DNA from: Shinella zoogloeoides
GTDB lineage: Bacteria > Pseudomonadota > Alphaproteobacteria > Rhizobiales > Rhizobiaceae
Length of the DNA: 64,000 nt
Direction: 5' to 3'
Assembly (NCBI RefSeq): GCF_022682305.1
Contig: NZ_CP093528.1
Span: forward strand, 943,501-1,007,500
Under the pieces are notes generated by a model, which was not told the DNA's origin, made no database searches, and saw only the letters and a program-made list of their open reading frames with translations. The number at the start of each line of letters is the position of its first letter. Position 1 is the stretch's first letter. Positions 34,466-61,200 of this stretch are shown here, in pieces. Made by a program: the position numbers and the translations under genes.

Positions 34466-35170
34466 TCAGTGAACCCGCAAGCCCATTTCGGCAAGGAGAG
34501 CCCCGGCCTGGTCGCGCGAGATCGTCGCTCCCTTGAACTTGCGAGCATCATCGAGCCGAATGCCGCCCAGGTCCGCGCCGCGCAAATCCGCGCCCTCGAA
34601 ACGGGCATCCACGAGATTGGCTTCCCTGAGACTTGAATCGAAAAAGATGGCCTCCCGGAAATCGCATTTGGCGAGGTCGGCCAAACTGAAATCCACCCGC
34701 TCGATCTCCACCTTGCGGAACGAAACACCCGGAAGGCGTGCCGCCGACAGAGTGGTTTCCTTGAAGACGACGGCGGTGGTGCGCGCTCTGGTGAAGTCGG
34801 CGCCAGTGAGTTTGCACCCGATGAAGTTCGCCTGGGTGACGGTCGCCCCTCCGAACTTGCCATTGTTGAAATCGCACTTCTCGATGGTCGCCTCAGCGAG
34901 CCTCGCCGCCGTGAAATCGACGAACGCTCCCCGGCAACTGACGAACTTGGCCTCTTCAAGCGTGGCGCTGGTGAAATTGGCGCGCTTCAGGATGCAATCC
35001 GCAAAGTGCCAACCCGTCATGTCGATGTTGGAAAGGTCGGCCTCTTCCAACTCGCAGTTCACGAGACGTATTGGTCGCCTCTCGGCAGCCAGGGCCGCGA
35101 TCTCGGCGCGGGAAGGCGCGCCGCCGTCAACCGTCTTGAGCGTCGCGTCGGGCGCTGAATGTGTCGTCAT
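34466..35170 (-). CDS. Pentapeptide-repeat protein, first gene of the pair
   Basis: This 234-residue protein has an N-terminal non-repeat cap (MTTHSAPDATLKTVDG) and then pentapeptides: CELEEADLSNIDMTGWHFADC, FTSATLEEAKFVSCRGAFVDF, NLVDARFEGADLRGADLGGIRL. A C-terminal tail ends LLAEMGLRVH. ATG 35170 is favoured since the longer frame to 35383 overlaps the divergent TetR gene. The promoter region (35171-35248) is AT-rich and shared with the broken tetR. The function is unknown; topoisomerase protection is possible but unproven. Confidence 0.83.
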   Translation of the reverse strand: MTTHSAPDATLKTVDGGAPSRAEIAALAAERRPIRLVNCELEEADLSNIDMTGWHFADCILKRANFTSATLEEAKFVSCRGAFVDFTAARLAEATIEKCDFNNGKFGGATVTQANFIGCKLTGADFTRARTTAVVFKETTLSAARLPGVSFRKVEIERVDFSLADLAKCDFREAIFFDSSLREANLVDARFEGADLRGADLGGIRLDDARKFKGATISRDQAGALLAEMGLRVH

Positions 35171-35248
35171 GAGAAAGACCCGCTGGAGATGTCGGTGAGG
35201 ATTCGATATGCTAATCAATACGAACATATTTATTGAAACGAGGCAAGC

Positions 35249-35786
35249 GTGAGCCGGGCCAAGACAATTGACGAGAACACGATCCTCGACGCGGCAGAGG
35301 CAGTCATTCGGGAAGACGGAGCGGCGGGCCTGACCATCGAGGCGGTGGCAAGGAAAGCCGGCGTATCGGTCGGTGGGCTGCAATTACTCGTTCCGCTCGA
35401 AAGACGCTCTCATCGCCGGCATGTTCGAACGATGGGGCCGTGAGTATGAAGCCGACCTGACTTCCCTCTATCCCAAACCTGTCAATGCCCTTGATGAAGC
35501 GCGCCGGGATATCGTGGTCGGCTTCAAGCAAAGCGTAACCGCGAAGAAGAAAGCGGCCAGCATCATTGCGGCGCTTCTGCGCTCACCTGAGCATTTGGCC
35601 CCCGTGAAAAGATGGTATCAAAGCCGCCTGAGCGGGATCGACATGGCTACGGAGGAAGGCAGGAAAGCACGTCTGGCTTTTCTGGCAGCCGAAGGCGCGT
35701 TCATGCTTCGGTTTATGGGGCTGCGCGAAATTCAGGACACGGAGTGGCAAGAAATAATGGATGACGTATTGGCGCTGCTGGAATAA
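35249..35786 (+). pseudogene. TetR family regulator gene disrupted by a frameshift
   Basis: The first part (GTG 35249) encodes a normal TetR helix-turn-helix up to AGVSVGGLQ. It then shifts out of frame and stops at 35443. The rest continues in another frame as YSFRSKDALIAGMFERWGREYE down to 35786. Removing one T in CAATTACTCG (about 35383-35392) restores GVSVGGLQYSFRSKDALI, the expected sequence. It faces the two pentapeptide-repeat genes across a 78-bp gap and was probably their repressor. If the mutation is real, those genes may be constitutive. A sequencing error is the alternative. Confidence 0.8.
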
Positions 35787-41331: not shown

Positions 41332-41644
41332 GGGCGGCGTTCCCGCGCTCGGCGGCGCTCATTCCGGTGTCCAGTCAGACAGGTTTTTGTCCGGCTGGAT
41401 TCCCGGCAGGAGGGGCAGAAAAGGCAGAAAGGGCGGAGGGCAAGATTAAAGAAGACGGCACCATATCGGGCCGCTTCTGGAAATTGTTGTTGTCTGCACA
41501 CTGGTTAGGTGGCCGGTTCCGGCACCATGGTTTTGAGGGGCCGCGTGCCGCGATTTCGCGCAAAGCCTTGGCTTTGCAGGGTTTCGAGCGGCACCATAGG
41601 CCCATATCGGCCTGTTGTCGGCGGTTTTGGCTGGAGTCGCGCCC
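41332..41644. other. Region before rlxS, probable oriT
   Basis: A 313-bp stretch without a convincing gene (a 106-residue frame overlapping the transglycosylase stop lacks coding character). It contains an exact hairpin GCAAAGCC-TT-GGCTTTGC at 41560-41577 and three direct copies of CGGCACCAT (41456, 41520, 41589). Such a region directly upstream of the relaxase is where oriT lies in related elements. Confidence 0.5.
41456..41598. repeat. Hairpin and CGGCACCAT repeats, candidate oriT
   Basis: Direct repeats CGGCACCATA (41456-41465), CGGCACCATG (41520-41529) and CGGCACCATA (41589-41598) flank the perfect 8-bp inverted repeat at 41560-41577. These could be binding sites for RlxS or an accessory protein and the nick region. 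The nick position was not determined. Confidence 0.5.
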
Positions 41645-43699
41645 TTGAGCGCCGACGACGAAAACCGCTTCCGTCCGAAGCCGGGCCGTATCCGATCCGA
41701 CACACCGAAGGCCGGCAAGACCAAGAGCTTTTTCACGCAGGTCAAGAAGATCACCCGGCAGCATCAGGCAGCAGCCTCCCGCGATCCTTCCATGCCGTCA
41801 TCCGCTCGCCCGTCATCGCCGGGGCGGTCCCGTGCCGTGGTCGCCAGCGGCAAGGGCGTGAAGCGCGGCCGGGGCGCGAGCTTCGTGCGCGCTCGGAACA
41901 TCTCCGGCCAATGGCATCATCGCCAGCCCGGCAGCCGCCGCGTGATCGTCAAGCAGCGCAGCGTTCGGGCCGCGTGGAAGGGCGCACGCGCCCGCGCGCA
42001 TCTGCGCTATGTCCAGCGCGACGGCACGTCACGCGACGGCGAGCGGGGCCGGCTCTATTCGGCGACCGAGGACCGCGCCGATGGCGACGCCTTCCTTGAT
42101 CGCGGCAAGGACGACCGCCACCAGTTCAGATTCATCGTCTCGCCCGAGGATGGCGCGGAGCTATCGGACCTCACGGCCTACACCCGCGATTTCATGAAGC
42201 AGGTGGAAGCCGACCTCGGCACGAAACTCGATTGGGTCGCCGTCAACCACTACAACACCGGCCATCCCCATGTGCATGTCATCGTCAACGGCCGCGACGA
42301 GATGGGCGAGGATCTAATCATCAATGGCGACTACCTCGCCAACGGCCTACGGGAGCGCGCCAGCGAGCTTGCCAGTCTGGAACTCGGCCCCGTCACCGAA
42401 ATCGAGCAGACCCGCAAGCTGTCGGCCGAGATAGACCAGGACCGTTTCACCCAGATTGACCGCGCCATGGCCGAGGAAGCCGATGCCCGGTTCCTCGACC
42501 TGCGCCATGAACCGGCCGCACCGCGCCGCCAGTTCGAGCGCACCTTACGCCTGCGCCGTCTCGCCAAGCTGGAGAAGATGGGACTGGCGACCGAGCACGC
42601 GCCCGGCGTTTGGGAGTTGAGCAAGGACATGGAGCCGGCCCTGCGCGAGTTGGGCGAGCGCGGCGACATTATCCGCACCATGCAGAAGGCGCTCGGCCCG
42701 CAGGGAGGCGAACGCGATCCCATGAGCTTTCAAATCCATGACGGAGCGCCAGAGACACCCATCGTCGGCCGCGTCGTGGACAAGCACCTGTCGGACGAGC
42801 TGGGCGAGAACCTGACCATTGTGGTGGACGGGATCGACGGCAGGACGCACCACATCGCAGGCATCGCGCCCGAGCGGCTGGAGGACGCCCGCGTTTGCAG
42901 CGTCGTCCAGATCGGCCCGGCCGAGGCGACCGCCCGACCGTCCGAACGCGCCATTGCCGCCATCACCGAGGACGGCATCTATCGTCCGAGCCGCCATCTG
43001 GAGCAGGCGAAGTTCGAGGGCCGCGTTCCGGGCGGCGATTATGAGGGCTATGTCGATGCCCATGTCCGGCGACTGGAGGCATTGCGCCGCGCCGGGATCG
43101 TCGAGAGGATCGACGCCGACCAATGGCGCATCCCCGATGATCTGGTCAGCCGCGCCGCCGCCTATGACGCCGGCCGTGACCGGCAGGCCAGCGTTCGCAT
43201 CCTTTCCCCGGTCGATCTAGGCAAGCAGATCGGATCGGACGGCACGACATGGCTGGACCGGCGATTGGTCCATGGCGAAACGGCCGACCTTGCGCCGGCC
43301 GGCTTCGGCCAGCAGGTGCGTGAGGCGATGGACCAGCGGCGCGAGCATCACATCGAACAGGGCGATGCCACCCGAGCACGGAACGGCCGCATCTTCTACC
43401 GGCGCAGCCTTCTCGCCACCTTGCGCGAGCGGGAGGTTGCCCGCATTGGCGCGGAGATGGCCGAGGGCAAGGGGTTGCCGTTCCGTGCCGCCACGGACGG
43501 CGAGAACGTCAGCGGCAAGTTCACCGGGACCGTTCAGCTATCGAGCGGCAAGTTCGCCGTGGTGGAAAAGAGCCATGAGTTCACGCTTGTCCCGTGGCGG
43601 CCGGTGATCGACCGCCAGCTCGGCCGCGAGATCACTGGCGTCGTGCAGGGCGGATCGGTGTCGTGGCAGTTGGGGCGAAGGCATGACCTTGGCCTTTAG
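41645..43699 (+). CDS. rlxS: RlxS-type relaxase (mobilisation nuclease with DUF3363)
   Basis: This 684-residue relaxase nicks oriT and leads the transferred strand. The N-terminal nuclease domain has the three-histidine metal site (VAVNHYNTGHPHVHVIVNGRDE, about residues 200-221). The large C-terminal part is DUF3363. The likely start is TTG 41645 (MSADDENRFRPKPGRIR), eight bases after GGAG; another TTG at 41615 is in frame. Neither is ATG, which suggests low expression. It ends just before the phenicol island; in related elements traG would follow. The family relates to the virD2 gene named in floR segments. Confidence 0.9.
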   Translation: MSADDENRFRPKPGRIRSDTPKAGKTKSFFTQVKKITRQHQAAASRDPSMPSSARPSSPGRSRAVVASGKGVKRGRGASFVRARNISGQWHHRQPGSRRVIVKQRSVRAAWKGARARAHLRYVQRDGTSRDGERGRLYSATEDRADGDAFLDRGKDDRHQFRFIVSPEDGAELSDLTAYTRDFMKQVEADLGTKLDWVAVNHYNTGHPHVHVIVNGRDEMGEDLIINGDYLANGLRERASELASLELGPVTEIEQTRKLSAEIDQDRFTQIDRAMAEEADARFLDLRHEPAAPRRQFERTLRLRRLAKLEKMGLATEHAPGVWELSKDMEPALRELGERGDIIRTMQKALGPQGGERDPMSFQIHDGAPETPIVGRVVDKHLSDELGENLTIVVDGIDGRTHHIAGIAPERLEDARVCSVVQIGPAEATARPSERAIAAITEDGIYRPSRHLEQAKFEGRVPGGDYEGYVDAHVRRLEALRRAGIVERIDADQWRIPDDLVSRAAAYDAGRDRQASVRILSPVDLGKQIGSDGTTWLDRRLVHGETADLAPAGFGQQVREAMDQRREHHIEQGDATRARNGRIFYRRSLLATLREREVARIGAEMAEGKGLPFRAATDGENVSGKFTGTVQLSSGKFAVVEKSHEFTLVPWRPVIDRQLGREITGVVQGGSVSWQLGRRHDLGL

Positions 43700-43803: not shown

Positions 43804-44373
43804 ATGCCGAGACCGAAACTTCATAGCGATGAGTTCATTCTAGATACCGCGCTAGGCATCCTTCTTCAGAAAGGTCCATCGGCCTTCACCCTCTCCGATG
43901 TTGCGGAAGCGGTCGGCATCTCGCGGGCTGCACTGATCCAGCGGTTCAAAGACAAGGCGACGCTGCATCTAAAGGTCATGGAGCGCAACACGCAGGAGGT
44001 GCGCGACTATTTCGCGGGTGCGAGTCCCGAAAAGGGCCTCGATCCGCTGTGGGCGATGCTCAAGGACCTCATCGCCGGTATGGGTGACGGTGCCGGAACG
44101 GAAGGCTACCTTCTTCTATTGTGGGGAGACGTTCAGGAGCCGTCGCTTCGCGCCCTTGCGGCGGAGCGGAACTGACTGGTCCTGAAAGCTATCGAGGCAC
44201 GACTGCCCGCCGGGCCGCGCCCACCCGAGCATACCGCCGGCTTGATTCAGACGGTCATTCAGGGGTCTTGCATGCAATGGCTCGTTGAGCCGGAAGGCGA
44301 GCTAGCGGCTTTCATGACCAAGCGCACCCACATGCTTCTGTCCGTCCTCTATCCCGACCATGTGTTCGGGTAA
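43804..44373 (+). pseudogene. TetR/AcrR family regulator gene with an internal stop
   Basis: ATG 43804 begins a typical TetR protein (MPRPKLHSDEFILDTALGI, helix-turn-helix at FTLSDVAEAVGISRAALIQRFKDKATLH). The frame stops at TGA 44173-44175 after LAAERN, then continues in the same frame with LVLKAIEARLP... and ends at TAA 44373. The tail (IQTVIQGSCMQWLVEPEGELAAFMTKRTHMLL) looks like a normal TetR end, so a TGG-to-TGA change is likely. The truncated 123-residue product would retain DNA binding but lose most of its ligand/dimer domain. It precedes the methyltransferase gene. Confidence 0.8.
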
Positions 44374-44393
44374 CACCATCTGGAGGGTTGTTT

Positions 44394-44413
44394 ATAACAG
44401 TCGTGTCGGTTAT
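44394..44413. promoter_or_regulatory. Possible operator upstream of the rlmN/cfr-like gene
   Basis: ATAAC and GTTAT are separated by ten bases and lie in an AT-rich patch (TTTATAAC ... GGTTATTTATAAGG), 53 bp before the methyltransferase start. It could be the binding site of the adjacent TetR or part of the promoter. Confidence 0.35.
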
Positions 44414-44466
44414 TTATAAGGCGTGCGCCACGGTATCGCCGGGCACGGAAACCCGGAACGACTATC

Positions 44467-45540
44467 ATGCCTATACAAGAACCCAGCCCGTTGGGGGGCG
44501 AACGACAAAAAGCACTGCCTGCGCCAACCTTGGCGCTGAACCTCATGGCCGACGAGTTCGATGCGTTGAACGCGAGCAGCGGGCCGCAAATCGCTTATCG
44601 CGACCTGTTCTGCCCACACATGGACCTGCCGCGCGCCTTGCGGAACTGGTCAGAGGCTCGGGGCGTCCAGTTGCGGAGCCTTCGCAAAATCACGCATGAG
44701 CGCGGCGGTCGGTCGCAGAAGGTGCTTTTCGGCCTTCATGACGGTTATGCCGTTGAAAGCGTTCTGATCCGTCGTCACGACGGACACACCGCCTGTATTT
44801 CGTCACAGGTTGGATGTGCCTTCGCCTGCCAGTTCTGCGCTTCCGGCCAAGCCGGCCTCAAGCGCAACCTTTCGGCGGGCGAGATTGTCGAACAGGTCGT
44901 TCAACTCGGGCCGAAGGTCAACCGGATCGTGTTCATGGGCATCGGCGAGCCTTTGAACAACTACGAGCAGGTGATGAAGGCGATTCGTATCCTGCGCGAC
45001 CGGCGAGGGATGAATTTTCCCACCACGGGAATCACGCTTTCGACCATCGGCATACCGAAGGCTCTAGCGCAATTGCGAGAAGAGCATCTGGCGATCAATC
45101 TGACTATATCGCTGCATGCGACGACGCAGGAAGTTCGCGACCGTCTCATCCCCGGATCGCGTAAGCACGACATCAAGGAAGTCATCGCGCGCGCTTCGTC
45201 ATGGGCGGAACGGCACAACCGGATCGTCACCTTTGTCTATCTGGTCCTCCCCGGCATCAACGACACGCTTGCTGATGCGAAACGGCTTGCCGGTCTCATG
45301 AACAAGCGAAGGGCGCGTGTGAACCTTATGCGCTGGAATCCTGTCGATGGCATCGCGCTTGATCGAACCGGCGACCGCAGCCTCGGACTTTTCCGTGAAG
45401 TGCTGGATCGCGCCGGTGTGCCGGTCGTGGTGCGGGATACACAGGGGCGGGATATTTCGGCGGCATGCGGTCAGCTCTGGTTGCGCGATCTGCGCGGAAT
45501 CCCGGTCGAAAAACGCGGAGCCACAAAAAAGGCCGCCTAG
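44467..45540 (+). CDS. RlmN/Cfr family radical SAM 23S rRNA adenine-2503 methyltransferase
   Basis: This 357-residue enzyme has the radical SAM cluster C117-x3-C121-x2-C124 (GCAFACQFCASGQ) and the two family cysteines: Cys110 in TACISSQ and Cys334 in SAACGQLW. RlmN methylates A2503 at C2, Cfr at C8; Cfr gives resistance to phenicols, lincosamides, oxazolidinones, pleuromutilins and streptogramin A. Several segments recall Cfr rather than RlmN (CISSQ, LSTIGI, NLTISLH, LPGINDTLADA), while GEPLNNYE is RlmN-like. It lies among regulators and floR, so a resistance role is plausible. It could instead be a diverged RlmN paralogue. The N-terminal 90 residues are a poorly conserved accessory domain. 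Confidence 0.85.
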   Translation: MPIQEPSPLGGERQKALPAPTLALNLMADEFDALNASSGPQIAYRDLFCPHMDLPRALRNWSEARGVQLRSLRKITHERGGRSQKVLFGLHDGYAVESVLIRRHDGHTACISSQVGCAFACQFCASGQAGLKRNLSAGEIVEQVVQLGPKVNRIVFMGIGEPLNNYEQVMKAIRILRDRRGMNFPTTGITLSTIGIPKALAQLREEHLAINLTISLHATTQEVRDRLIPGSRKHDIKEVIARASSWAERHNRIVTFVYLVLPGINDTLADAKRLAGLMNKRRARVNLMRWNPVDGIALDRTGDRSLGLFREVLDRAGVPVVVRDTQGRDISAACGQLWLRDLRGIPVEKRGATKKAA

Positions 45541-45552: not shown

Positions 45553-46515
45553 ATGCGGCGTTCGAAAAGACATGCGAACGATGCCTTCCGATCAAGTGAA
45601 ACGCTGCTCGGGTCGCGCATACCTCTCTTGTCGCTGATCCAGACGCTTGCGGTCGCTGAATATCTCAACTTCCGCCACGCAGCGAACGCACTCGGGGTTG
45701 CACAATCCAGCGTCAGCGCCCGCGTGAAGGCGCTGGAAGAAGACCTTGGCATCCTCCTGTTCGAGCGTCGTGCGCGTGGCGTTCGGTTGACCGAAGCCGG
45801 ACGCCACTTCGTCGAGCGGATCGCAGCCGGCGTCGATCAACTCGACCATGCGGTGAAGACCGCAGGCATGGCGGCGACGGGGGAATGGGGCCGCCTGCGC
45901 ATCGGCGTCCATGCCTTGATTCCGCGCAGCTTCCTCGCCGATCTGATCGGGCAGTATCGGGAAAACCATCCCGGCATCGAGGTCGAAATCACCGAAGGCA
46001 CGGCCCGCGATGCGGTCATGCAGCTTCGTGCCGACCGGCTGGACGTGGCGTTCGTCGCTGGCACACCAGAGCTGCCCGACTGCCATACACGGCCGGTCTG
46101 GACTGAATCGCTGGTAGCGGTGCTACCGGATAGGCATCGTCTTGCCGGGCAGCCGGCAATCACTTGGGCCGATCTGGTCGGCGAAACCTTCCTTGTCCGC
46201 TATGGTGGCACTGGCCCGCAGGTTCATGACCATATCGTGCTGCGCCTTGCCGGGCGCTGGCCCGCGCCTTCGATACTGCGCTTCGACGTAGGACGTGGCA
46301 CGCTACTATCCATGGTCGGACAGGGATTCGGCATTACCATCGTCGGGGCAGCGACGGCACTGCTGCCGACTGCCGGCATCACCTTCCTGCCTTTCGCCGA
46401 TGAGCCAGAGCCGGTTGCCTTTACCGCCGTCTGGTCGCCGTTCAATCGAAGCGCCGCGCTCCGTGATCTGCTCTCTCTCGCAAAAGAAATGGGTCGGCTG
46501 ATCCGCGTCGACTGA
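45553..46515 (+). CDS. LysR family transcriptional regulator (copy 1)
   Basis: This 320-residue regulator has an N-terminal winged helix (LAVAEYLNFRHAANALGVAQSSVSARVKALEEDLGILLFERR) and a LysR substrate-binding domain from about residue 105. It lies 12 bp after the methyltransferase gene and may be co-transcribed. It is closely similar, throughout its length, to the second LysR gene at 48073-49056. The inducer is not known. Confidence 0.88.
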   Translation: MRRSKRHANDAFRSSETLLGSRIPLLSLIQTLAVAEYLNFRHAANALGVAQSSVSARVKALEEDLGILLFERRARGVRLTEAGRHFVERIAAGVDQLDHAVKTAGMAATGEWGRLRIGVHALIPRSFLADLIGQYRENHPGIEVEITEGTARDAVMQLRADRLDVAFVAGTPELPDCHTRPVWTESLVAVLPDRHRLAGQPAITWADLVGETFLVRYGGTGPQVHDHIVLRLAGRWPAPSILRFDVGRGTLLSMVGQGFGITIVGAATALLPTAGITFLPFADEPEPVAFTAVWSPFNRSAALRDLLSLAKEMGRLIRVD

Positions 46516-46694
46516 ACCTCTGCCCGTTCCAGCCAACCGCCAAAGCAAGGCATAGGGGTTTCATACGGCCAAGAATGACGGGAACGTCAACAGCGGGGGA
46601 TTGGGTGGCTACGAGCCAGCGATACGGCATTGCGAGGCAACAGCTGATCGTATAAGTGATAGCTAGTCAAATTTGTGATCGTGGAGTGGTCAGC

Positions 46695-46724
46695 ATGGGA
46701 AATCCAAAGTCAGCAGACAAGTAA
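46695..46724 (+). CDS. floR leader peptide (MGNPKSADK)
   Basis: A nine-codon frame starts at ATG 46695 and ends at TAA 46722-46724. The peptide resembles the cmlA leader MSTSKNADK, which stalls ribosomes in the presence of chloramphenicol. The match at K-x-A-D-K and the same length support a shared function. GGAGTGG lies upstream as a ribosome site. It precedes a hairpin and floR by 106 bp. Confidence 0.65.
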   Translation: MGNPKSADK

Positions 46725-46752
46725 GCCGCAACAGCAAAATTGTTGTTGCGGC
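46725..46752 (+). promoter_or_regulatory. Hairpin directly after the floR leader peptide
   Basis: GCCGCAACA pairs perfectly with TGTTGCGGC around a ten-base loop, starting at the base after the leader stop codon. In phenicol attenuators a ribosome stalled on the leader opens the first hairpin and frees the resistance gene's ribosome site. The further pairing that would hide floR's own ribosome site was not resolved by eye. Outside the leader and hairpin, 46516-46830 contains nothing else recognised. Confidence 0.5.
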
Positions 46753-46830
46753 GCTCTGTGAGACCAATCCCATGTGATTGCTGATGTGCAGACGCCGCCC
46801 GAGATTTCTTAATCGAGCGGTTGACTTATC

Positions 46831-48045
46831 ATGACCATCACACGCCCTGCATGGGCCTATACGCTGCCGGCAGCCCTACTGCTGATGGCTCCCTTCGACA
46901 TCCTCGCTTCACTGGCGATGGATATTTATCTCCCCGTCGTTCCAGCGATGCCCGGCATCCTGAACACGACGCCCGCCATGATCCAACTCACGTTGAGCCT
47001 CTATATTGTGATGCTCGGTGTGGGCCAGGTGATTTTTGGTCCGCTCTCAGACCGCATCGGGCGACGGCCAATTCTACTTGCGGGCGCAACGGCTTTCGTC
47101 ATTGCGTCTCTGGGAGCAGCTTGGTCTTCAACTGCACCAGCCTTTGTCGCTTTCCGTCTGCTTCAAGCAGTCGGCGCGTCGGCCATGCTGGTGGCGACGT
47201 TCGCGACGGTTCGCGACGTTTATGCCAGTCGTCCTGAGGGTGTCGTCATCTACGGCCTTTTCAGTTCGATGCTGGCGTTCGTACCTGCGCTCGGCCCTAT
47301 CGCCGGAGCGTTGATCGGCGAGTTCTTGGGATGGCAGGCGATATTCATTGCTTTGGCTATACTGGCGATGCTCGCACTCCTAAATGCGGGTTTCAGGTGG
47401 CACGAAACCCGCCCTCTGGATCAAGCGAAGACGCGCCGATCTGTTTTGCCGATCTTCGCGAGTCCGGCTTTTTGGGTTTACACCATCGGCTTTAGCGCCG
47501 GTATGGGCACCTTCTTCGTCTTCTTCTCGACGGCTCCCCGTGTGCTCATAGGCCAAGCGGAATATTCCGAGATCGGATTCAGCTTTGCCTTCGCCACTGT
47601 CGCGCTTGTAATGATCGTGACAACTCGTTTCGCGAAGTCCTTTGTCACCAGATGGGGCATCGCGGGATGCGTAGCGCGTGGAATGGCGTTGCTCGTTTTC
47701 GGGGCGGTCCTGTTGGGGATCGGCGAACTCTTCGGTTCGCCGTCATTCCTCACCTTCATCGTGCCGATGTGGGTCATGGCGGTCGCCATTGTCTTCACTG
47801 TGTCCGTTACCGCGAACGGCGCTTTGGCAGAGTTCGACGACATCGCAGGATCAGCGGTCGCGTTCTACTTCTGCGTTCAAAGCCTGATAGTCAGCATTGT
47901 CGGGACATTGGCGGTGACGCTGTTAAACGGTGACACAGCGTGGCCGGTGATCTGTTACGCCACGGCGATGGCAGTGCTGGTGTCGTTGGGGCTGGCGCTC
48001 CTTCGGCTCCGTGGGACTGCCACCGAGAAGTCGCCAGTCGTCTAA
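46831..48045 (+). CDS. floR: FloR chloramphenicol/florfenicol exporter (MFS)
   Basis: This 404-residue, 12-segment MFS pump of the DHA1 (Bcr/CmlA) family exports chloramphenicol and florfenicol. The sequence from MTITRPAWAYTLPAALLLMA to ATEKSPVV agrees with known FloR along its whole length, with scattered differences (for example MTITRP for MTTTRP). The conserved LSDRIGRRPILL loop is intact. Expression is probably inducible through the upstream leader. It is flanked by two related lysR genes; a lysR gene downstream is the usual floR context. Confidence 0.95.
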   Translation: MTITRPAWAYTLPAALLLMAPFDILASLAMDIYLPVVPAMPGILNTTPAMIQLTLSLYIVMLGVGQVIFGPLSDRIGRRPILLAGATAFVIASLGAAWSSTAPAFVAFRLLQAVGASAMLVATFATVRDVYASRPEGVVIYGLFSSMLAFVPALGPIAGALIGEFLGWQAIFIALAILAMLALLNAGFRWHETRPLDQAKTRRSVLPIFASPAFWVYTIGFSAGMGTFFVFFSTAPRVLIGQAEYSEIGFSFAFATVALVMIVTTRFAKSFVTRWGIAGCVARGMALLVFGAVLLGIGELFGSPSFLTFIVPMWVMAVAIVFTVSVTANGALAEFDDIAGSAVAFYFCVQSLIVSIVGTLAVTLLNGDTAWPVICYATAMAVLVSLGLALLRLRGTATEKSPVV

Positions 48046-48072
48046 CCGACGACTGGTGGCAGGCCCGCTCCG

Positions 48073-49056
48073 ATGCGGCGCACTAACCATCGAAACCTCG
48101 TGAATGGCGGTATCCTGTCTGGCAGGATACCGCTCATTTCCCTTGTTCAGTTCATCGCCGTCGCCGAGCATCTGAATTTTCGGCATGCGGCCAAGGCACT
48201 CGGCGTCAGCCAGTCGAGCGTCAGCGCGCGTGTGAAAGCGCTGGAGGATAACCTTGGTATCCTGCTGTTTGAGCGCCATGCGCGGGGCGTTCGGCTAACA
48301 GACGCAGGCAGGCACTTCATGGAGCGTGTCACGGCGGGTGTCGATCAACTCGATCACGCGGTGAAGACCGCCGGCATGACAGCTCAAGGAGAATGTGGCC
48401 GGCTTCGCATCGGCATCCATGCCTTGATCCCACGCAGCTTTCTCACGGAGCTGATCCGTCATTATCGGGAAGCCCATACCGGCATTGAGGTCGAGATAAC
48501 CGAAGGCACGGCCCGCGATGCGGTGATGCAGCTTCGTGCTGACCAGCTCGACGTGGCGTTCGTCGCGGGCAAGCCCGAGATGCCCGACTGCCATACCCGA
48601 CCGATCTGGACCGAACCGCTGGTGGTGGTGCTATCGGATGGGCATCGCCTCGCCGGGCAGTCCGCAATCACTTGGTCCGATCTGGTCGGCGAGACTTTCA
48701 TTGTTCGCTATGGTGGCACCGGCCCGCAGGTCCATGACCATATCGTGCTGCGCCTTGCCGGGCGTTGGCCCGCACCGTCGATCCTGCGCTTTGATGTGGG
48801 GCGCGGCACGCTGCTATCTATGGTCGGACAAGGCTTCGGCATCACTATCGTCGGCGAGGCCACGTCATTATTGCCGACGACCGGCATCGTCTTCCTGCCC
48901 TTCCTCGATGAACCGGAGCCGGTTGCCTTTACAGCCGTCTGGTCGCCGTTCAATCGCAGCTCCGCACTGAAAAATCTACTCAACCTCGCAGGCAAAATGA
49001 AGCGTGACGGCGATTCGCCCAATCGTTTCCTCGATGGCACTCGACCGGCACGATAA
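48073..49056 (+). CDS. LysR family transcriptional regulator (copy 2), floR-associated
   Basis: This 327-residue LysR protein (helix-turn-helix at AVAEHLNFRHAAKALGVSQSSVSARVKALEDNLGILLFERH) starts 27 bp after floR. It is closely similar to the gene at 45553-46515; the C-terminal thirds (HDHIVLRLAGRWPAPSILRF and beyond) are almost the same. A lysR gene right after floR is found in many floR regions of other bacteria. It ends 131 bp before traG. Confidence 0.9.
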   Translation: MRRTNHRNLVNGGILSGRIPLISLVQFIAVAEHLNFRHAAKALGVSQSSVSARVKALEDNLGILLFERHARGVRLTDAGRHFMERVTAGVDQLDHAVKTAGMTAQGECGRLRIGIHALIPRSFLTELIRHYREAHTGIEVEITEGTARDAVMQLRADQLDVAFVAGKPEMPDCHTRPIWTEPLVVVLSDGHRLAGQSAITWSDLVGETFIVRYGGTGPQVHDHIVLRLAGRWPAPSILRFDVGRGTLLSMVGQGFGITIVGEATSLLPTTGIVFLPFLDEPEPVAFTAVWSPFNRSSALKNLLNLAGKMKRDGDSPNRFLDGTRPAR

Positions 49057-49187
49057 CGGCAAAGGCGACCCGTCCTATTTGCCGCCGATAGTATCCGGCA
49101 GCCCTCCGGCATCCTCTTTCCTGTTGCCCGTCCCGATTTTGCCTACTCTCTGATCGGCTCCGTCTTTTTTTGCCGACTGGAGCCTGT

Positions 49188-51176
49188 ATGCGCGGAGGCC
49201 GAATCCTTTGGGGGCAGATTGGTGCCGTCTTCACCATCGTTCTGGTGATGGTGTGGGCAGCGACGCAATGGACGGCGTTCCGCCTCGGCTTCCAGCCGCA
49301 GCTTGGAGCACCATGGTTCGAGCTGGCGGGCCTGCCGGTCTATTATCCGCCCGCCTTCTTCTGGTGGTGGTTTTCGTTCGACGCCTACGCGCCCGCGATC
49401 TTCGTCGAGGGCGGCATCATCGCGGTATCGGGCGGCTTCCTCGCCATCGCCGCCGCCATCTTCATGTCGATCATCCGGGCGCGGGAGGCGCGCAACGTCG
49501 CCACCTACGGATCGGCGCGATGGGCTGAGGACCGGGAAATCCGTGCGGCCGGATTGCTCGGCCCCGATGGCGTCTTGCTCGGCCGATACGACCGGGACTA
49601 TCTGCGCCATGACGGTCCCGAGCATGTCCTATGCTTTGCCCCGACGCGTAGCGGCAAAGGCGTCGGGCTGGTGGTGCCGACGCTGCTGACATGGCCGGCA
49701 TCCGCCATCGTTCACGACATAAAAGGCGAGAACTGGACGCTGACAGCGGGCTTCCGCGCGAAGCATGGCCGCGTGCTGCTGTTCGATCCGACCAACGCCA
49801 GATCGTCGGCCTACAACCCGCTGCTGGAGGTCCGGCAAGGGGAATGGGAAGTCCGCGACGTGCAGAATATCGCGGATATTCTGGTCGATCCCGAAGGCAG
49901 TCTCGACAAGCGCAACCATTGGGAAAAGACCAGCCATAGCTTGCTGGTCGGCGCGATCCTGCATGTTCTCTATGCGGAGAAGGACAAGACCTTGGCGGGC
50001 GTCGCCAACTTCCTGTCCGATCCCCGCCGCCCGGTCGAGGCAACCTTGCGCGCGATGATGGACACGCCGCATCTCGGCGAAGCAGGCGCTCATCCCGTCA
50101 TCGCGTCGTCCGCCCGCGAACTGTTGAACAAATCCGAGAACGAGCGGTCGGGCGTGCTCTCCACCGCCATGTCGTTTCTCGGCCTCTACCGCGATCCCGT
50201 GGTGGCGCGGGTGACGGCGCGGTGCGACTGGCGCATTGCCGACCTGGTCGGCAGCCGCCAGCCCGTCACGCTCTATCTGGTCGTGCCGCCATCCGACATA
50301 AACCGCACCAAGCCGCTCATTCGCCTGATCCTCAACCAGATCGGCAGGCGGTTGACCGAGGAACTGACCACCTCCGGCAAGCGCCATCGGCTGCTGTTGA
50401 TGCTGGACGAGTTTCCGGCGCTCGGCCGGCTCGACTTCTTTGAATCGGCGCTCGCCTTCATGGCGGGGTATGGAATCAAAGGCTTCCTGATCGCGCAGAG
50501 CCTCAACCAGATCGAGCGCGCCTATGGCCCGAACAACGCGATCCTCGACAACTGCCATGTGCGCGTCAGCTTCGCCACGAACGACGAAAGGACGGCCAAG
50601 CGGGTGAGCGACGCACTCGGCACCGCGACCGAACTGCGCGACTCCACCAACTACGCCGGGCACAGATTGGCCCCGTGGCTTGGGCATCTCATGGTTTCAC
50701 GGCAGGAGACGGCCCGCCCGCTACTCACGCCGGGCGAAATCATGCAGCTTCCGCCCACCGACGAAATCGTGATGGTCGCGGGCACACCGCCGATCCGCGC
50801 GACCAAGGCCCGCTATTTCGAGGACGCGCGGTTGCAGGAACGCATCCTGACCCCGCCCGATCTGGTCGCCGCTCCGCTGGCGCCCAGTCCATCCGCCGAT
50901 GATTGGTCCGGCCGTGTGGTCGCGGCGGAAAGCCATTCCGCGACCGACGCCGCACACGGGGCCGAGGGCGATCCGGCCAATGCTGGCATCCGCCGCGAGC
51001 CGGAGCTGCCTGAGCATGAGGAAATCGTCGCCCCGCCGCCATCACCCGAACAGGAGTTCGAGTTTGTGGACGACGAGCCGGACGTTGACGCGGCCAAGGC
51101 CCGCGCCATGCGCCAACGTATGAGGATGGTCGCGCGGCAGGTCGCATTGAACCCCGATGACGGAATCGACCTTTGA
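49188..51176 (+). CDS. traG: TraG/VirD4 type IV coupling protein
   Basis: This 662-residue ATPase links the relaxosome to the mating channel. Two or three N-terminal membrane segments (about residues 12-100) precede the P-loop APTRSGKGVG (151-160). Walker B is LLMLDEFPALGR. The C-terminal part is charged and proline-rich. ATG 49188 follows TGGAG; a TTG at 49170 is less likely. It overlaps nothing and is followed by copG. Confidence 0.93.
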   Translation: MRGGRILWGQIGAVFTIVLVMVWAATQWTAFRLGFQPQLGAPWFELAGLPVYYPPAFFWWWFSFDAYAPAIFVEGGIIAVSGGFLAIAAAIFMSIIRAREARNVATYGSARWAEDREIRAAGLLGPDGVLLGRYDRDYLRHDGPEHVLCFAPTRSGKGVGLVVPTLLTWPASAIVHDIKGENWTLTAGFRAKHGRVLLFDPTNARSSAYNPLLEVRQGEWEVRDVQNIADILVDPEGSLDKRNHWEKTSHSLLVGAILHVLYAEKDKTLAGVANFLSDPRRPVEATLRAMMDTPHLGEAGAHPVIASSARELLNKSENERSGVLSTAMSFLGLYRDPVVARVTARCDWRIADLVGSRQPVTLYLVVPPSDINRTKPLIRLILNQIGRRLTEELTTSGKRHRLLLMLDEFPALGRLDFFESALAFMAGYGIKGFLIAQSLNQIERAYGPNNAILDNCHVRVSFATNDERTAKRVSDALGTATELRDSTNYAGHRLAPWLGHLMVSRQETARPLLTPGEIMQLPPTDEIVMVAGTPPIRATKARYFEDARLQERILTPPDLVAAPLAPSPSADDWSGRVVAAESHSATDAAHGAEGDPANAGIRREPELPEHEEIVAPPPSPEQEFEFVDDEPDVDAAKARAMRQRMRMVARQVALNPDDGIDL

Positions 51177-53206: not shown

Positions 53207-53707
53207 TTAGATTTCGAGTTCTAGGCGTTCTGCGATGAAGGTTGGATCCCAGCCGGGATTGAAAGTGTCGACGTGGGTGAATCCGAGCCGCTCGTATAGG
53301 CCACGCAGGTTCGGGTGGCAGTCGAGCCGCAGCTTGGCGCACCCCTGCGTTCGCGCGGCATGGCGGCAAGCCTCGATCAGCGCGGAGCTGACACCCCGGC
53401 CCGCATGTGTCCGTCGCACCGCGAGCTTGTGCAGATATGCGGCCTCCCCCTTGAGGGCGTCGGGCCAGAACTCGGGATCCTCGGCCGACAAGGTGCAACA
53501 GCCGACGATGCCGTCGCTGCAACTCGCGACTAGGAGCTCGGATCTCAGGACGAAGGTCTCCGCGAATGTCCGGTCGATCCGCGCGACGTCCCAGGCGGGC
53601 GTTCCCTTGGCGGACATCCACGCCGCAGCGTCGTGCATCAGCCGCACAACCTCGTCGATATCACCCGAGCAGGCGACCCGAACGTTCGGAGGCTCCTCGC
53701 TGTCCAT
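53207..53707 (-). CDS. orf5: GNAT family acetyltransferase (orf5 of the 3'-conserved segment)
   Basis: This 166-residue GNAT protein has the acetyl-CoA binding loop KLAVRRTHAGRGVSSALIEACRH (about residues 92-114). It is the standard gene downstream of sul1 in class 1 integrons. Its substrate is unknown and no resistance has been shown. It is complete here. Confidence 0.93.
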   Translation of the reverse strand: MDSEEPPNVRVACSGDIDEVVRLMHDAAAWMSAKGTPAWDVARIDRTFAETFVLRSELLVASCSDGIVGCCTLSAEDPEFWPDALKGEAAYLHKLAVRRTHAGRGVSSALIEACRHAARTQGCAKLRLDCHPNLRGLYERLGFTHVDTFNPGWDPTFIAERLELEI

Positions 53708-53834
53708 TCGCTCCCCTGGCGCGGTATGAACCGCCGCCTCATAGTGCAGTTTGATCCTGACGAGCCCAGCATGTCTGCGCCCACCTTCGCGGAACCTGAC
53801 CAGGGTCCGCTAGCGGGCGGCCGGAAGGTGAATG

Positions 53835-54674
53835 CTAGGCATGATCTAACCCTCGGTCTCTGGCGTCGCGACTGCGAAATTTCGCGAGGGTTTCCGAGAA
53901 GGTGATTGCGCTTCGCAGATCTCCAGGCGCGTGGGTGCGGACGTAGTCAGCGCCATTGCCGATCGCGTGAAGTTCCGCCGCAAGGCTCGCTGGACCCAGA
54001 TCCTTTACAGGAAGGCCAACGGTGGCGCCCAAGAAGGATTTCCGCGACACCGAGACCAATAGCGGAAGCCCCAACGCCGACTTCAGCTTTTGAAGGTTCG
54101 ACAGCACGTGCAGCGATGTTTCCGGTGCGGGGCTCAAGAAAAATCCCATCCCCGGATCGAGGATGAGCCGGTCGGCAGCGACCCCGCTCCGTCGCAAGGC
54201 GGAAACCCGCGCCTCGAAGAACCGCACAATCTCGTCGAGCGCGTCTTCGGGTCGAAGGTGACCGGTGCGGGTGGCGATGCCATCCCGCTGCGCTGAGTGC
54301 ATAACCACCAGCCTGCAGTCCGCCTCAGCAATATCGGGATAGAGCGCAGGGTCAGGAAATCCTTGGATATCGTTCAGGTAGCCCACGCCGCGCTTGAGCG
54401 CATAGCGCTGGGTTTCCGGTTGGAAGCTGTCGATTGAAACACGGTGCATCTGATCGGACAGGGCGTCTAAGAGCGGCGCAATACGTCTGATCTCATCGGC
54501 CGGCGATACAGGCCTCGCGTCCGGATGGCTGGCGGCCGGTCCGACATCCACGACGTCTGATCCGACTCGCAGCATTTCGATCGCCGCGGTGACAGCGCCG
54601 GCGGGGTCTAGCCGCCGGCTCTCATCGAAGAAGGAGTCCTCGGTGAGATTCAGAATGCCGAACACCGTCACCAT
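53835..54674 (-). CDS. sul1: Sul1 sulfonamide-resistant dihydropteroate synthase
   Basis: This 279-residue DHPS replaces the chromosomal enzyme when sulfonamides block it. [21 protein letters not shown] is the known Sul1 start, with [15 protein letters not shown] and IHSF-type pterin contacts further on. The ATG at 54674 overlaps the end of qacEdelta1 by seven bases, as in all 3'-conserved segments. It is full length. Confidence 0.97.
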
Positions 54675-55015
54675 GGCGTCGGCCTCCGCAGCGACTTCCA
54701 CGATGGGGATCGGGCGAGCAAAAAGGCAGCAATTATGAGCCCCATACCTACAAAGCCCCACGCATCAAGCTTTTGCCCATGAAGCAACCAGGCAATGGCT
54801 GTAATTATGACGACGCCGAGTCCCGACCAGACTGCATAAGCAACACCGACAGGGATGGATTTCAGAACCAGAGAAAGAAAATAAAATGCGATGCCATAAC
54901 CGATTATGACAACGGCGGAAGGGGCAAGCTTAGTAAAGCCCTCGCTAGATTTTAATGCGGATGTTGCGATTACTTCGCCAACTATTGCGATAACAAGAAA
55001 AAGCCAGCCTTTCAT
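54668..55015 (-). CDS. qacEdelta1: QacE-delta1, truncated SMR exporter of quaternary ammonium compounds
   Basis: This 115-residue small multidrug resistance protein has four hydrophobic segments ([21 protein letters not shown], Glu in the first helix). The C-terminus ([13 protein letters not shown]) is replaced by 3'-conserved sequence, as is usual for the delta1 form. Activity is reduced but not lost. It starts 103 bp after the aadA2 attC. Confidence 0.95.
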
Positions 55016-55117
55016 GATATATCTCCCAATTTGTGTAGGGCTTATTATGCACGCTTAAAAATAATAAAAGCAGACTTGACCTGATAGTTTGGCTGTGAGC
55101 AATTATGTGCTTAGTGC

Positions 55118-55177
55118 ATCTAACGCCGGAGTTAAGCCGCCGCGCGTAGCGCGGTCGGCTTGAACGAATTGTTAGAC
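55118..55177. repeat. attC site of the aadA2 cassette
   Basis: A 60-bp attC bounded by ATCTAAC (55118-55124) and GTTAGAC (55171-55177) with a GC-rich inner palindrome (GCCGCGCG/CGCGCGGTCGGC-like). The length is that of aadA-type sites. Confidence 0.85.
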
Positions 55178-55178
55178 A

Positions 55179-55958: not shown

Positions 55959-55973
55959 CGCTACCCTCATGAT

Positions 55974-56030: not shown

Positions 56031-56054
56031 TCCCTCATTTTCATTTCCGGTTTC

Positions 56055-57275
56055 CTATAGGGCAACTAGGCTGTCCTTGCCGGCGCTTGGAACACAGACG
56101 ATGGCATCAAATGCCTCGCTCAATTTCGTTTTTACAGAGGCGCTTTGAGACCGCATTCGCTTTGCTTCCATGGGGGCATCTGTCAATGTCAGACATGAAT
56201 TCTCCGTACCACAGGCGTCGATGACATACTGTTCCATACTATCCTCACGGATTGCATCGGCAGGCGTGGTCACAACAGAGAATCCAAGAGGACTGTCGGG
56301 CGATGGGAAATGCATTTCCGGCACGGTGGGTCCAAGATGGGTGAATGCAATCGCACGGTAATTCACCCTCTCTGCGAGGTGCTGCCCCATGGGAACAGCC
56401 GTAAGCTCGCCTGAAAAGGAGACTGGGGTTTTTTGTAAATGATTGTTGTGCGCCAGCAGAATTATCTTCACATCCGGATTCGCTCGAACCATTCCATCTA
56501 CTACGCCCGCCATATACGAGTCACGTACGGAAGTATCTCCCTCAAGAGAGGTACCATCGAAGAAAGTTTTCATTATACGCAAGGTTTCCAACGTATACTC
56601 TATCGATTCTATTCGATCAGAGGCTTTTCGGAACAAATCGCTGTTGACGTGTTTTTTCAGTACAGGGGCAAGCGACGCCAAGCGGAGCTTCAATCTGGTT
56701 ACCCCTGAGATAGCTTTCTCCTGCCGAGCCGTTTCTAGCTCCCCCCATTTTGCCGATGAAATAACCGCCGACTGGCCATCAATGGACGCCAACAAGTGAG
56801 TCAGCATATCAACGTGCGGTTTCATGAGGTGATCGATGAGCTGGATAATTTCGGCCAATTGCGCTAGGTCGTCCCTTGGGTTCAGGGTGTTGGGTAAGTC
56901 GATTCCGACTAACTGCAGTTTTCTTCCTGATTCGCGGAGATATGATTTCAGCCAGATCAGCACTGAGCCATACACAGAAAAGGTCAGGGTATCCGAAAAT
57001 CGCTCAAGTTCATGAGCACCGGCTGTTGAGTTGAGCCATTCAGATAACCGGGATGCCTGAATCGCCCCACATTCCAAACCAATCGCATTAAAATCATGCC
57101 TTTCGACCAAATAGCGGATAAGACTTGCTCTAGCCAGTGAAAACTCCGCGACAAAATGAGCGCCCTCGCCAATGCCGACAATTCGGGCGCCCTCAATTAC
57201 GGAAGTAAGAATCTCAAACTCATTGAAGTCCAGATTTTGAGGCTGTAAAAGTGTTCTGGTCGTTCTCCACGTCAT
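56055..57275 (-). CDS. ereA: EreA erythromycin esterase
   Basis: This 406-residue esterase opens the lactone ring of 14-membered macrolides. IVGIGEGAHFVAEF contains the conserved GE-H pair, and ILLAHNNHLQKTP supplies the second histidine region. It is a cassette gene with its own attC. The dfrA-ereA-aadA2 order has been reported before, with an ereA of this type. Full length; allele (ereA1 or ereA2) not decided by eye. Confidence 0.93.
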   Translation of the reverse strand: MTWRTTRTLLQPQNLDFNEFEILTSVIEGARIVGIGEGAHFVAEFSLARASLIRYLVERHDFNAIGLECGAIQASRLSEWLNSTAGAHELERFSDTLTFSVYGSVLIWLKSYLRESGRKLQLVGIDLPNTLNPRDDLAQLAEIIQLIDHLMKPHVDMLTHLLASIDGQSAVISSAKWGELETARQEKAISGVTRLKLRLASLAPVLKKHVNSDLFRKASDRIESIEYTLETLRIMKTFFDGTSLEGDTSVRDSYMAGVVDGMVRANPDVKIILLAHNNHLQKTPVSFSGELTAVPMGQHLAERVNYRAIAFTHLGPTVPEMHFPSPDSPLGFSVVTTPADAIREDSMEQYVIDACGTENSCLTLTDAPMEAKRMRSQSASVKTKLSEAFDAIVCVPSAGKDSLVAL

Positions 57276-57340
57276 TATTTTACCTTTGCGTTTATTACTT
57301 TAATCGCCATACGTTCGCTTCGCCAACAACCCGGGTCACA

Positions 57341-58609: not shown

Positions 58610-59623
58610 ATGAAAACCGCCACTGCGCCGTTACCACCGCTGCGTTCGGTCAAGGTTCTGGACCAGTTGCGTGAGCGCATACGCTACTTGCATTACAGTT
58701 TACGAACCGAACAGGCTTATGTCCACTGGGTTCGTGCCTTCATCCGTTTCCACGGTGTGCGTCACCCGGCAACCTTGGGCAGCAGCGAAGTCGAGGCATT
58801 TCTGTCCTGGCTGGCGAACGAGCGCAAGGTTTCGGTCTCCACGCATCGTCAGGCATTGGCGGCCTTGCTGTTCTTCTACGGCAAGGTGCTGTGCACGGAT
58901 CTGCCCTGGCTTCAGGAGATCGGAAGACCTCGGCCGTCGCGGCGCTTGCCGGTGGTGCTGACCCCGGATGAAGTGGTTCGCATCCTCGGTTTTCTGGAAG
59001 GCGAGCATCGTTTGTTCGCCCAGCTTCTGTATGGAACGGGCATGCGGATCAGTGAGGGTTTGCAACTGCGGGTCAAGGATCTGGATTTCGATCACGGCAC
59101 GATCATCGTGCGGGAGGGCAAGGGCTCCAAGGATCGGGCCTTGATGTTACCCGAGAGCTTGGCACCCAGCCTGCGCGAGCAGCTGTCGCGTGCACGGGCA
59201 TGGTGGCTGAAGGACCAGGCCGAGGGCCGCAGCGGCGTTGCGCTTCCCGACGCCCTTGAGCGGAAGTATCCGCGCGCCGGGCATTCCTGGCCGTGGTTCT
59301 GGGTTTTTGCGCAGCACACGCATTCGACCGATCCACGGAGCGGTGTCGTGCGTCGCCATCACATGTATGACCAGACCTTTCAGCGCGCCTTCAAACGTGC
59401 CGTAGAACAAGCAGGCATCACGAAGCCCGCCACACCGCACACCCTCCGCCACTCGTTCGCGACGGCCTTGCTCCGCAGCGGTTACGACATTCGAACCGTG
59501 CAGGATCTGCTCGGCCATTCCGACGTCTCTACGACGATGATTTACACGCATGTGCTGAAAGTTGGCGGTGCCGGAGTGCGCTCACCGCTTGATGCGCTGC
59601 CGCCCCTCACTAGTGAGAGGTAG
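58610..59623 (+). CDS. intI1: Class 1 integron integrase IntI1
   Basis: This 337-residue tyrosine recombinase inserts and removes cassettes at attI1/attC. The catalytic residues are present: Arg in [12 protein letters not shown], His/Arg in [14 protein letters not shown], His in LLGHSDVST and Tyr in TMIYTHVLK. The start [16 protein letters not shown] and the end [12 protein letters not shown] match complete IntI1. It is divergent from the cassettes, and the cassette promoter Pc lies within it. Confidence 0.97.
58697..58725 (-). promoter_or_regulatory. Cassette promoter Pc, hybrid type PcH1
   Basis: Read on the minus strand: -35 TGGACA (58720-58725), 17-bp spacer, -10 TAAACT (58697-58702). 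This combination is the PcH1 variant, weak to intermediate. The second promoter P2 (58580-58606) has a 14-bp spacer, without the GGG insertion, and should be inactive. Pc drives all four cassettes. Confidence 0.85.
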
Positions 59624-60204: not shown

Positions 60205-61200
60205 ATGACCACCAATCACCAAAAGCCGGAAGCCATTGCGCGCGGCGCGCGCATGTTGCGCACCGCGCTCGGCCCAGCCATTGCCCGGCTGCTCGAAGAC
60301 CCGGCCGTGGTCGAGGTGATGCTGAACCCGGATGGTCGCCTTTGGGTGGACCGGCTATCCGAAGGGCTTTCCGACACGGGCGAGCGACTGTCCGCCGCCG
60401 ATGGCGAACGCATCGTTCGGCTAGTCGCGCATCATGTCGGCGCGGAGGTTCATGCCCGCAGCCCCCGCGTCTCGGCCGAACTGCCCGAGAGCGGGGAGCG
60501 GTTTGAAGGGCTATTGCCGCCCGTGGTCGCTGCCCCGACCTTCGCCATCCGCAAGCCCGCCGTCGCGGTGTTCACGCTCGACGACTATGTGGCGGCGGGC
60601 ATCATGTCCACCGATCAGGCGGAAACGCTGCGCGAAGCCGTCGCATCCCGCGCCAATATCTTGGTAGCGGGCGGCACCAGCACCGGCAAAACCACGCTGA
60701 CCAATGCGCTGCTCGCCGAGGTGGCGAAGACGGCGGATCGCGTCGTCATCATCGAGGACACGCGCGAGCTGCAATGCGCCGCGCCCAACCTTGTCGCCAT
60801 GCGGACGAAAGACGGCGTGGCGACGCTTTCCGATCTGGTCCGGTCCTCGCTGCGCCTGCGCCCCGACCGCATCCCTATCGGCGAGGTGCGCGGATCGGAA
60901 GCCCTCGACCTGCTCAAAGCATGGGGCACGGGCCATCCGGGCGGGATCGGCACCATTCATGCAGGCACCGGCATCGGCGCGCTGCGCCGCCTTGAACAGC
61001 TCATCCAAGAGGCTGTCGTCACCGTCCCGCGCGCCCTGATCGCCGAGACAATCGACCTCGTTGCCGTCCTTTCCGGGCGCGGTTCCGCGCGCCGGCTGGC
61101 CGAACTCGCCCGCGTCGAAGGGCTGGGACCGGACGGCGACTACCGCATCACGCATCCCATCCCTTTGGCAATCCCCACCAGCACAGGAGAATCTTCATGA
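60205..61200 (+). CDS. trbB: TrbB, secretion ATPase of the conjugation channel
   Basis: This 331-residue VirB11-like ATPase powers pilus assembly and substrate transfer at the inner membrane. Walker A is GGTSTGKT (about residues 156-163); the Asp box ([12 protein letters not shown]), Walker B-like [19 protein letters not shown] and the following His box are present. It starts the trbBCDE operon, just after the integron. The stop overlaps trbC. Confidence 0.95.

Follow-up and report, generated by a model that had tools for sequence, protein, structure and literature searches.

Which function does a methyltransferase gene of the RlmN/Cfr superfamily serve if it lies on a conjugative island next to the phenicol exporter gene floR? 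The gene in question (Table 1) is located in a stretch of 64,000 nucleotides from Shinella zoogloeoides (contig NZ_CP093528.1), which as a whole is called the window here. The original prediction saw in it an undescribed Cfr-like gene that might act together with floR against florfenicol, or else a diverged RlmN paralogue. Our analysis points elsewhere: the gene is likely a Gram-negative (alphaproteobacterial) macrolide resistance rRNA methyltransferase of the MrmA type, which would normally be inducible by macrolides but is here probably expressed constitutively, and which forms further resistance cargo on the floR island. A macrolide role is suggested since three things converge: the phenotype of the MrmA clan, a conserved MphR-type repressor with its operator, and the erythromycin esterase gene ereA on the same island. 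We infer the macrolide inducer, the rRNA substrate, the resistance phenotype and the constitutive expression from sequence comparison. The MrmA kind of enzyme is already known; the lineage and the regulation are new.

Placement of the enzyme among RlmN, Cfr and MrmA

MrmA (macrolide resistance methyltransferase A) was described in 2025 from Tn6105, Tn6110 and Tn7806 of Clostridioides difficile ribotype 176 (PMC11983580). In an E. coli delta-tolC strain it raised the minimal inhibitory concentration of erythromycin from 2 to 512-1024, a rise put at about 512-fold; streptogramin B was, in the authors' words, up 4-fold, and tylosin, clindamycin, tiamulin, chloramphenicol and linezolid are called unchanged (PMC11983580). 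The authors set the enzyme apart from RlmN and Cfr and suggest that a different adenine is modified (PMC11983580). One row in our data, L102, is by its sequence MrmA or nearly so: its open reading frame starts with MKRLPKYT, and the 20 gene-specific bases of the published MrmA cloning primer are matched exactly.

The window protein stays below the cut-offs of all family profiles, with 275.7 bits for RlmN (TIGR00048, cut-off 290) and 200.3, 196.6 and 194.5 bits for the Cfr profiles NF000424, TIGR04432 and NF011024 (cut-offs 530, 550 and 468). A tree with RlmN and Cfr sequences had been proposed as the way to place the gene. In our first tree 28 rows of the window gene's clade and three clostridial MrmA-group rows form one clan (support 100/98), and a second tree of 55 chosen rows unites 12 clade rows with 10 MrmA-group rows (100/99). 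Cfr is a clan of its own at 100/100 with the window gene outside in both trees, and the RlmN-type rows of the second tree form one clan at 97/93, again without it. The deep split in the first tree is weak; Cfr joins RlmN there with low support (72/88) and PRK14464-type rows fall on the other side. The second tree is unrooted and keeps the three clans separate. By sequence, the window gene fits neither Cfr nor the housekeeping RlmN and falls into a third clan together with MrmA.

For the first tree, DV_L051 and DV_L059 failed the length filter and short pieces were not taken; RX_L015 and RX_L031, dropped for a stop, were re-entered as open frames. This tree was thinned by 11 names (4 HK, 5 DV, RX_L014 and RX_L020) and runs without RX_L030, which lies in two frames, and without the near-identical copies L008-L013.

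Single residues give a similar picture. At 25 positions that separate Cfr from RlmN, the window protein agrees with Cfr at 4, with RlmN at 8 and with neither at 13, two of the latter being gaps. In place of the Cfr-specific S153, Y252, H286 and F330 it has V, T, R and Q, the loop between helix 5 and strand 6 of Cfr is missing, and the SQCGC segment found in 15 of 17 Cfr rows occurs in 0 of 28 clade rows (the window reads SQVGC). The proposed membership in Cfr had to be given up on the profile scores, the tree position and the 4 of 25 matches; what holds of the prediction is that the gene belongs to the RlmN/Cfr superfamily, is mobile and not a housekeeping one, and is probably a resistance gene. 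The clade, with 28 rows, and the MrmA group, with 18, have sixteen positions in common, each of which occurs in no more than 15% of the RlmN-type (48) and Cfr (17) rows; this signature was defined in the present analysis and is not a published one. Both groups also have a shortened N-terminal domain, with 18-21 residues in columns where RlmN-type rows have 25-36 and Cfr has 31. L102 shares 48.6% identity with the window protein over 259 residues; Cfr reaches 35.6% (298 residues) and E. coli RlmN 37.5% (256 residues).

Nearly all Cfr and RlmN rows retain the arginines of Cfr that contact helix 90 (R184 and R185); of the 28 clade rows, 27 have lost the first and all 28 the second, and both are lost in the three MrmA-group rows of the same alignment. 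Instead, new arginines and histidines have become fixed. Because of these exchanges, because part of the RNA-binding N-terminal domain is missing, and because the MrmA phenotype differs from that of m8A2503 and the MrmA authors likewise suggest another adenine (PMC11983580), we tentatively propose, well aware that this could turn out wrong, that the MrmA clan including its Gram-negative branch might be a third specificity class of RlmN/Cfr enzymes. Such enzymes would methylate an adenosine other than A2503 and so produce a 23S modification that is not described so far and is controlled directly by macrolides. As examples only, our guess at targets would be A2058, A2059 or A2062, adenosines that contact macrolides.

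The reading frame itself is present as predicted. Its radical S-adenosylmethionine (SAM) and methyl-carrier cysteines (Cys110, 117, 121, 124 and 334), which all three clans share, do not vary among the 27 aligned rows, the window being one of them, nor among the 28 clade rows. The ratio of nonsynonymous to synonymous changes (dN/dS) is 0.07-0.13 against five diverged relatives, which argues that the frame is more than a chance one and is under purifying selection; against two near-identical copies, with very few changes, it is 0.34. In two identical plasmid copies the gene is annotated as rlmN, with the start placed 63 bases further in.

Several short segments had been taken as closer to Cfr than to RlmN, and all of them are present. 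Counted in clade, Cfr and RlmN-type rows, of which the last include 22 (of 48) drawn from a pattern scan that itself used a STIGI-containing pattern, STIGI occurs in 26/28, 8/17 and 3/48, LTxSLH in 28/28, 14/17 and 0/48, and LPGxND (or SD) in 28/28, 6/17 and 0/48. For these three the prediction holds, as part or most of the Cfr sequences have them but RlmN-type ones rarely or never do. CISSQ (16/28, 16/17 and 10/48) has weak diagnostic value, and GEPLxNY (28/28, 0/17 and 13/48) is RlmN-like, in line with the earlier assignment of GEPLNNYE.

An MphR-type regulator upstream of the enzyme gene

Judged by its intact relatives, the TetR-type regulator encoded upstream, which is truncated in the window, is an MphR homologue with an MphR-type recognition helix. 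A profile built from 21 intact regulators matched MphR(A) (PDB 3frq) with E=9.6e-56 over 187 positions and the erythromycin resistance repressor 6u18 with E=2.7e-54, and the next TetR protein followed at 2.5e-7. Aligned over 98% of its length, the intact regulator of locus L014 shares 41.9% identity with MphR(A) (E=3.5e-39). Mean identity to MphR is 43% overall (n=21), and the values against MphR(A) by part are 63% for the DNA-binding part, 93% for the recognition segment and 35% for the ligand domain. MphR reportedly responds to macrolides, erythromycin among them (PMC4551912 and PMC9662819).

A regulator homologue is present at 27 of 29 clade loci, at L011 in two pieces, and the two misses (L009 and L031) lie at contig ends. 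Distances between regulators correlate with those between the enzymes (r=0.825, n=20), a value reached in 0 of 5000 permutations; 20 of the 21 regulators entered this test, L030 having no enzyme row.

In the window copy homologous sequence runs on past the premature stop to about position 44370, and there is one in-frame stop. The open reading frame caller placed the start at 43753, further upstream than the conserved one. On islands or plasmids, eight other copies of the gene are open to the usual end, and the copy of L011 is interrupted by extra DNA. The window repressor should be non-functional since about half of its ligand and dimer domain is lost, and since the stop should abolish repression, the methyltransferase is probably expressed constitutively.

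The operator in the methyltransferase promoter

We compared 32 promoters of the methyltransferase gene, that of the window among them; 11 come from near-identical island or plasmid copies. In 30 of these promoters the family dyad TAACCGNCGNGNCGGTTA lies upstream of the gene with no more than 3 mismatches. It is positioned between a TTG-type -35 and a -10-like element. In shuffled controls, none was as good in 29 of the 32 promoters; for L028 it was 1 in 200, and for L031 and L035 7 in 200 each. The dyad stays beside the enzyme gene at loci where other reading frames part the enzyme from the regulator (L021, L024 and L026). Over 18 bases, the operator core of L029 agrees letter for letter with the mph(A) promoter on a Shigella sonnei plasmid.

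Genome-wide searches gave few matches elsewhere. In the 5.14 Mb genome of the window, 44395-44412 is the sole match with at most 1 mismatch, and a reversed control pattern gave 2 matches. In 12 genomes the cassette was matched 12 times out of 12, with 6 places elsewhere vs 39 matches of the reversed control; in G404 and G408 the cassette match falls on the dyad before the regulator gene. Read by eye, the regulator gene is directly preceded by another dyad of this kind at L019, L020, L022, L024, L027, L028, L032, L034 and L035, suggesting autoregulation of the regulator.

Distribution across relatives

A pattern scan of species genomes gave 61 loci. The clade accounts for 29 of them (L007-L035); the other 32 (L036-L067) are less closely related, at 34-43% identity, and the 22 of these used in the tree fall with RlmN. 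Eight of the 29 clade loci are 99-100% identical copies, among them L008 of Kaistia adipata with an identical gene, and the rest share 64-85% identity; the latter are mostly on alphaproteobacterial contigs, with one in Nitratidesulfovibrio and one in an actinobacterial metagenome-assembled genome. Since they come from searching a single collection with two peptide patterns, the 29 loci are not a census. When 385 genomes were drawn evenly from the class, only the window's own genome had the enzyme (E<=1e-60) or the regulator (E<=1e-25). Identical copies of the gene are present on two plasmids of Rhodobacter xanthinilyticus, located before LysR-floR and then tet(G), flanked by IS1247.

Every one of the 28 genomes searched, namely that of the window and those belonging to 27 of the 29 loci (all but L010 and L012), has a further RlmN homologue, which exceeds the family cut-off in 26 genomes and is found only in pieces in the other two. 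The separate housekeeping RlmN of the window genome groups with Rhizobiales RlmN in the first tree. A diverged paralogue in the sense of a local duplication of the host RlmN was rejected on this separate copy and on the distinct clan, which is not a branch of alphaproteobacterial RlmN.

The partnership with floR was likewise rejected: floR occurs at 7 of 29 clade loci (L007-L013) and on the two plasmids, vs 27 of 29 loci for the regulator, and in the available flanks it was not found at L014 or at 21 more distant clade loci. Besides the regulator, no neighbour within 5.5 kb recurs at more than 4 of 21 loci. The steady partner of the methyltransferase is the MphR-type regulator, not floR. A role against florfenicol alongside floR finds no support here, as MrmA leaves chloramphenicol unchanged (PMC11983580) and regulator and operator point to macrolides.

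The island and its neighbouring genes

The gene order around the methyltransferase is RlxS-like relaxase, TetR-type regulator, methyltransferase, LysR, floR, LysR, TraG (Table 1). The predicted mobile island with floR is recovered, with relaxase and TraG adjacent; instead of the two regulators expected there are three nearby, namely the truncated one of the TetR/MphR type, located upstream, and a LysR type on either side of floR. By its gene content the island is conjugative and carries other resistance genes, and a TraF-like gene (below cut-off) is found on the same element as TrbB. A related island copy, L014 (8001-12220), is without floR and the second LysR segment (window 46506-49065). Since the two LysR genes are 83% identical, floR could be gained or lost by recombination between them.

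An integron-like block (53207-59623) comprises sul1 (641 bits, cut-off 600), aadA, ereA, a dihydrofolate reductase gene and a tyrosine recombinase, and adjoins a GNAT gene and an IS6-family transposase. The aadA gene is above the AadA family cut-off and just under that of AadA3. Two adjacent genes on the minus strand encode pentapeptide-repeat proteins (33741-34463 and 34466-35383), the first with a weak match to the Qnr family (67.8 bits, cut-off 240).

Table 1. Features of the methyltransferase locus and the surrounding island (positions in the window).
Feature	Position	Strand	Remarks
RlxS-like relaxase (island backbone)	41615..43699	+	662 bits, below cut-off 850
MphR-family (TetR-type) repressor gene, premature stop	43804..44175	+	123 codons from conserved start vs ~189 in relatives
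-35-like element TTGTTT	44388..44393	+	read from sequence, putative promoter role; operator fills spacer
MphR-type operator dyad (putative)	44395..44412	.	1 mismatch to family dyad
-10-like element TATTTA	44411..44416	+	read from sequence, putative promoter role; 17-bp spacer from -35-like element
MrmA-type radical-SAM RNA methyltransferase gene (predicted)	44467..45540	+	357 aa, intact
LysR-type regulator 1, upstream of floR	45553..46515	+	83% identical to LysR 2
floR phenicol exporter, island-specific, outside conserved cassette	46831..48045	+	871.5 bits, cut-off 700
LysR-type regulator 2	48073..49056	+	
TraG coupling protein (island backbone)	49170..51176	+	1234 bits, cut-off 674
ereA, erythromycin esterase, same island	56055..57275	-	946.9 bits, cut-off 750
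Tyrosine recombinase beside dihydrofolate reductase gene, ereA, aadA, sul1	58610..59623	+	putative class 1 integron integrase, from arrangement
TrbB conjugation ATPase (island backbone)	60205..61200	+	

Proposed mechanism and alternative explanations

In its normal form, the system would be a two-gene cassette in which the methyltransferase promoter contains an operator occupied by an MphR-type repressor. If a macrolide is present, the repressor would let go and the enzyme would be made on demand; with its methyl-carrier cysteine it would C-methylate a 23S rRNA adenosine, so that 14-membered macrolides bind less well. The cassette would have been acquired by a conjugative island and set beside LysR-floR, and with the broken repressor gene of the window copy the enzyme would probably be made all the time.

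Other readings of the locus have to be weighed against such a macrolide-inducible MrmA-type enzyme. A Cfr-type resistance enzyme would have the complete set of catalytic cysteines, the LTxSLH and STIGI segments and a mobile setting adjoining floR, all of which the window gene has; yet we regard this as very improbable, given the low profile score, the position outside the Cfr clan, the lack of S153, Y252, H286, F330 and SQCGC, and the small share of loci with floR. Moreover, MrmA, the closest characterised relative, is without the tested phenotypes of the Cfr kind (PMC11983580). It is also unlikely that the gene is a second RlmN, that is, an enzyme which methylates C2 of A2503 and of tRNA A37 and is produced when the housekeeping enzyme runs short: it scores below the RlmN cut-off, falls into a separate clan, has lost part of the N-terminal domain and lacks the R41/Q44/R206/R207-type positions kept by RlmN and Cfr (the alignment at R41/Q44 being uncertain), and a macrolide-type regulator would be unexpected for a housekeeping spare. 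The cassette might instead answer a non-macrolide ligand and methylate another RNA such as tRNA, with resistance being incidental. The ligand domain with only 35% identity to MphR, the changed RNA-contact positions and the environmental species names of many hosts would fit this, but the measured macrolide phenotype of the MrmA clan (PMC11983580), ereA on the same island and the copies travelling with resistance genes on islands and plasmids make it a reading of low probability.

Some observations weigh against an MrmA-type macrolide cassette. The inducer may not be erythromycin since the ligand domain differs so strongly from that of MphR(A), and drug spectrum and target could differ from those of MrmA since identity is only about 49% over 259 aa. 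The promoters of L031 and L035 have no convincing full dyad (4 mismatches). The first tree carries a warning of long branches meeting, the clostridial branch among them; the second is without this warning, but its bootstrap is not fully settled. In the fetched flanks of the 29 loci no homologue of the Ere, Mph, Mrx, Mef or HflX queries used was found; as a positive control, a repeat search matched every query in its own source and nowhere else. Finally, in the relative L030 (Brevundimonas bullata, 8001-9019) the enzyme gene is split over two reading frames. The regulator gene of L030 is open although the enzyme gene lies in two frames.

If an MrmA-type macrolide cassette is what the locus holds, a mobile Gram-negative macrolide resistance determinant would be missed because annotation pipelines name such genes rlmN and thereby mark them as housekeeping. 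The MphR wiring is evidence independent of the trees that links this enzyme branch to macrolides. The cassette offers a natural switched system for finding the modified nucleotide and may show how one radical-SAM scaffold gained C2-A2503, C8-A2503 and perhaps a third activity. In the literature searched, mostly without subscription journals, there was no paper joining MphR and RlmN, and rlmN-like, macrolide and mobile were found together only in the MrmA paper (PMC11983580). By title, neither of the two papers that combine floR, rlmN and lysR concerned such an island, and the accessible part of a paper on multidrug-resistant Brevundimonas with floR on a putative integrative and conjugative element makes no mention of rlmN.

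Comparison with known systems

Two neighbourhoods of MrmA-group genes were noted beside the comparison with MrmA. On a Paraclostridium plasmid (L003, 479-4330) genes for a Mef-like transporter (350.7 bits, below the cut-off of 675), HflX and an MrmA-group enzyme lie in a row, possibly a macrolide resistance cluster. In Monoglobus (L103, 5641-6816) an MrmA-group gene follows a cysteine-rich KTR protein amid mobile-element genes; it may perhaps occupy the slot usual for tet(M).

The Cfr family (Cfr, Cfr(C), Cfr(D) and relatives) shares with the window enzyme the radical-SAM fold, the five cysteines and LTxSLH, but is a separate clan with its own specific positions and the helix 5-strand 6 loop. 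RlmN is likewise a separate clan, from which the window enzyme differs by its score below the cut-off, its shorter N-terminal domain and its changed RNA-contact positions. The closest parallel on the side of regulation is the MphR(A)-mph(A) unit. There, too, the operator is inside the target promoter, with the 18-base core identical to that of L029, and the regulators are alike (42% identical over the length, with a near-identical recognition helix). In the mph(A) unit, however, the regulator gene follows mph(A) and mrx(A) as the last one and controls a phosphotransferase, whereas here the regulator is located upstream of a methyltransferase. With MrmA the window gene has the clan, the 16 signature positions and the short N-terminal domain in common, and both genes are mobile and extra to another RlmN. 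They differ in sequence, in the Gram-negative hosts of the window clade, and in its MphR-type regulator and operator; none is named for MrmA in the accessible part of the paper (PMC11983580), and the annotated neighbourhood of the MrmA-group gene in L103 has no TetR-type gene.
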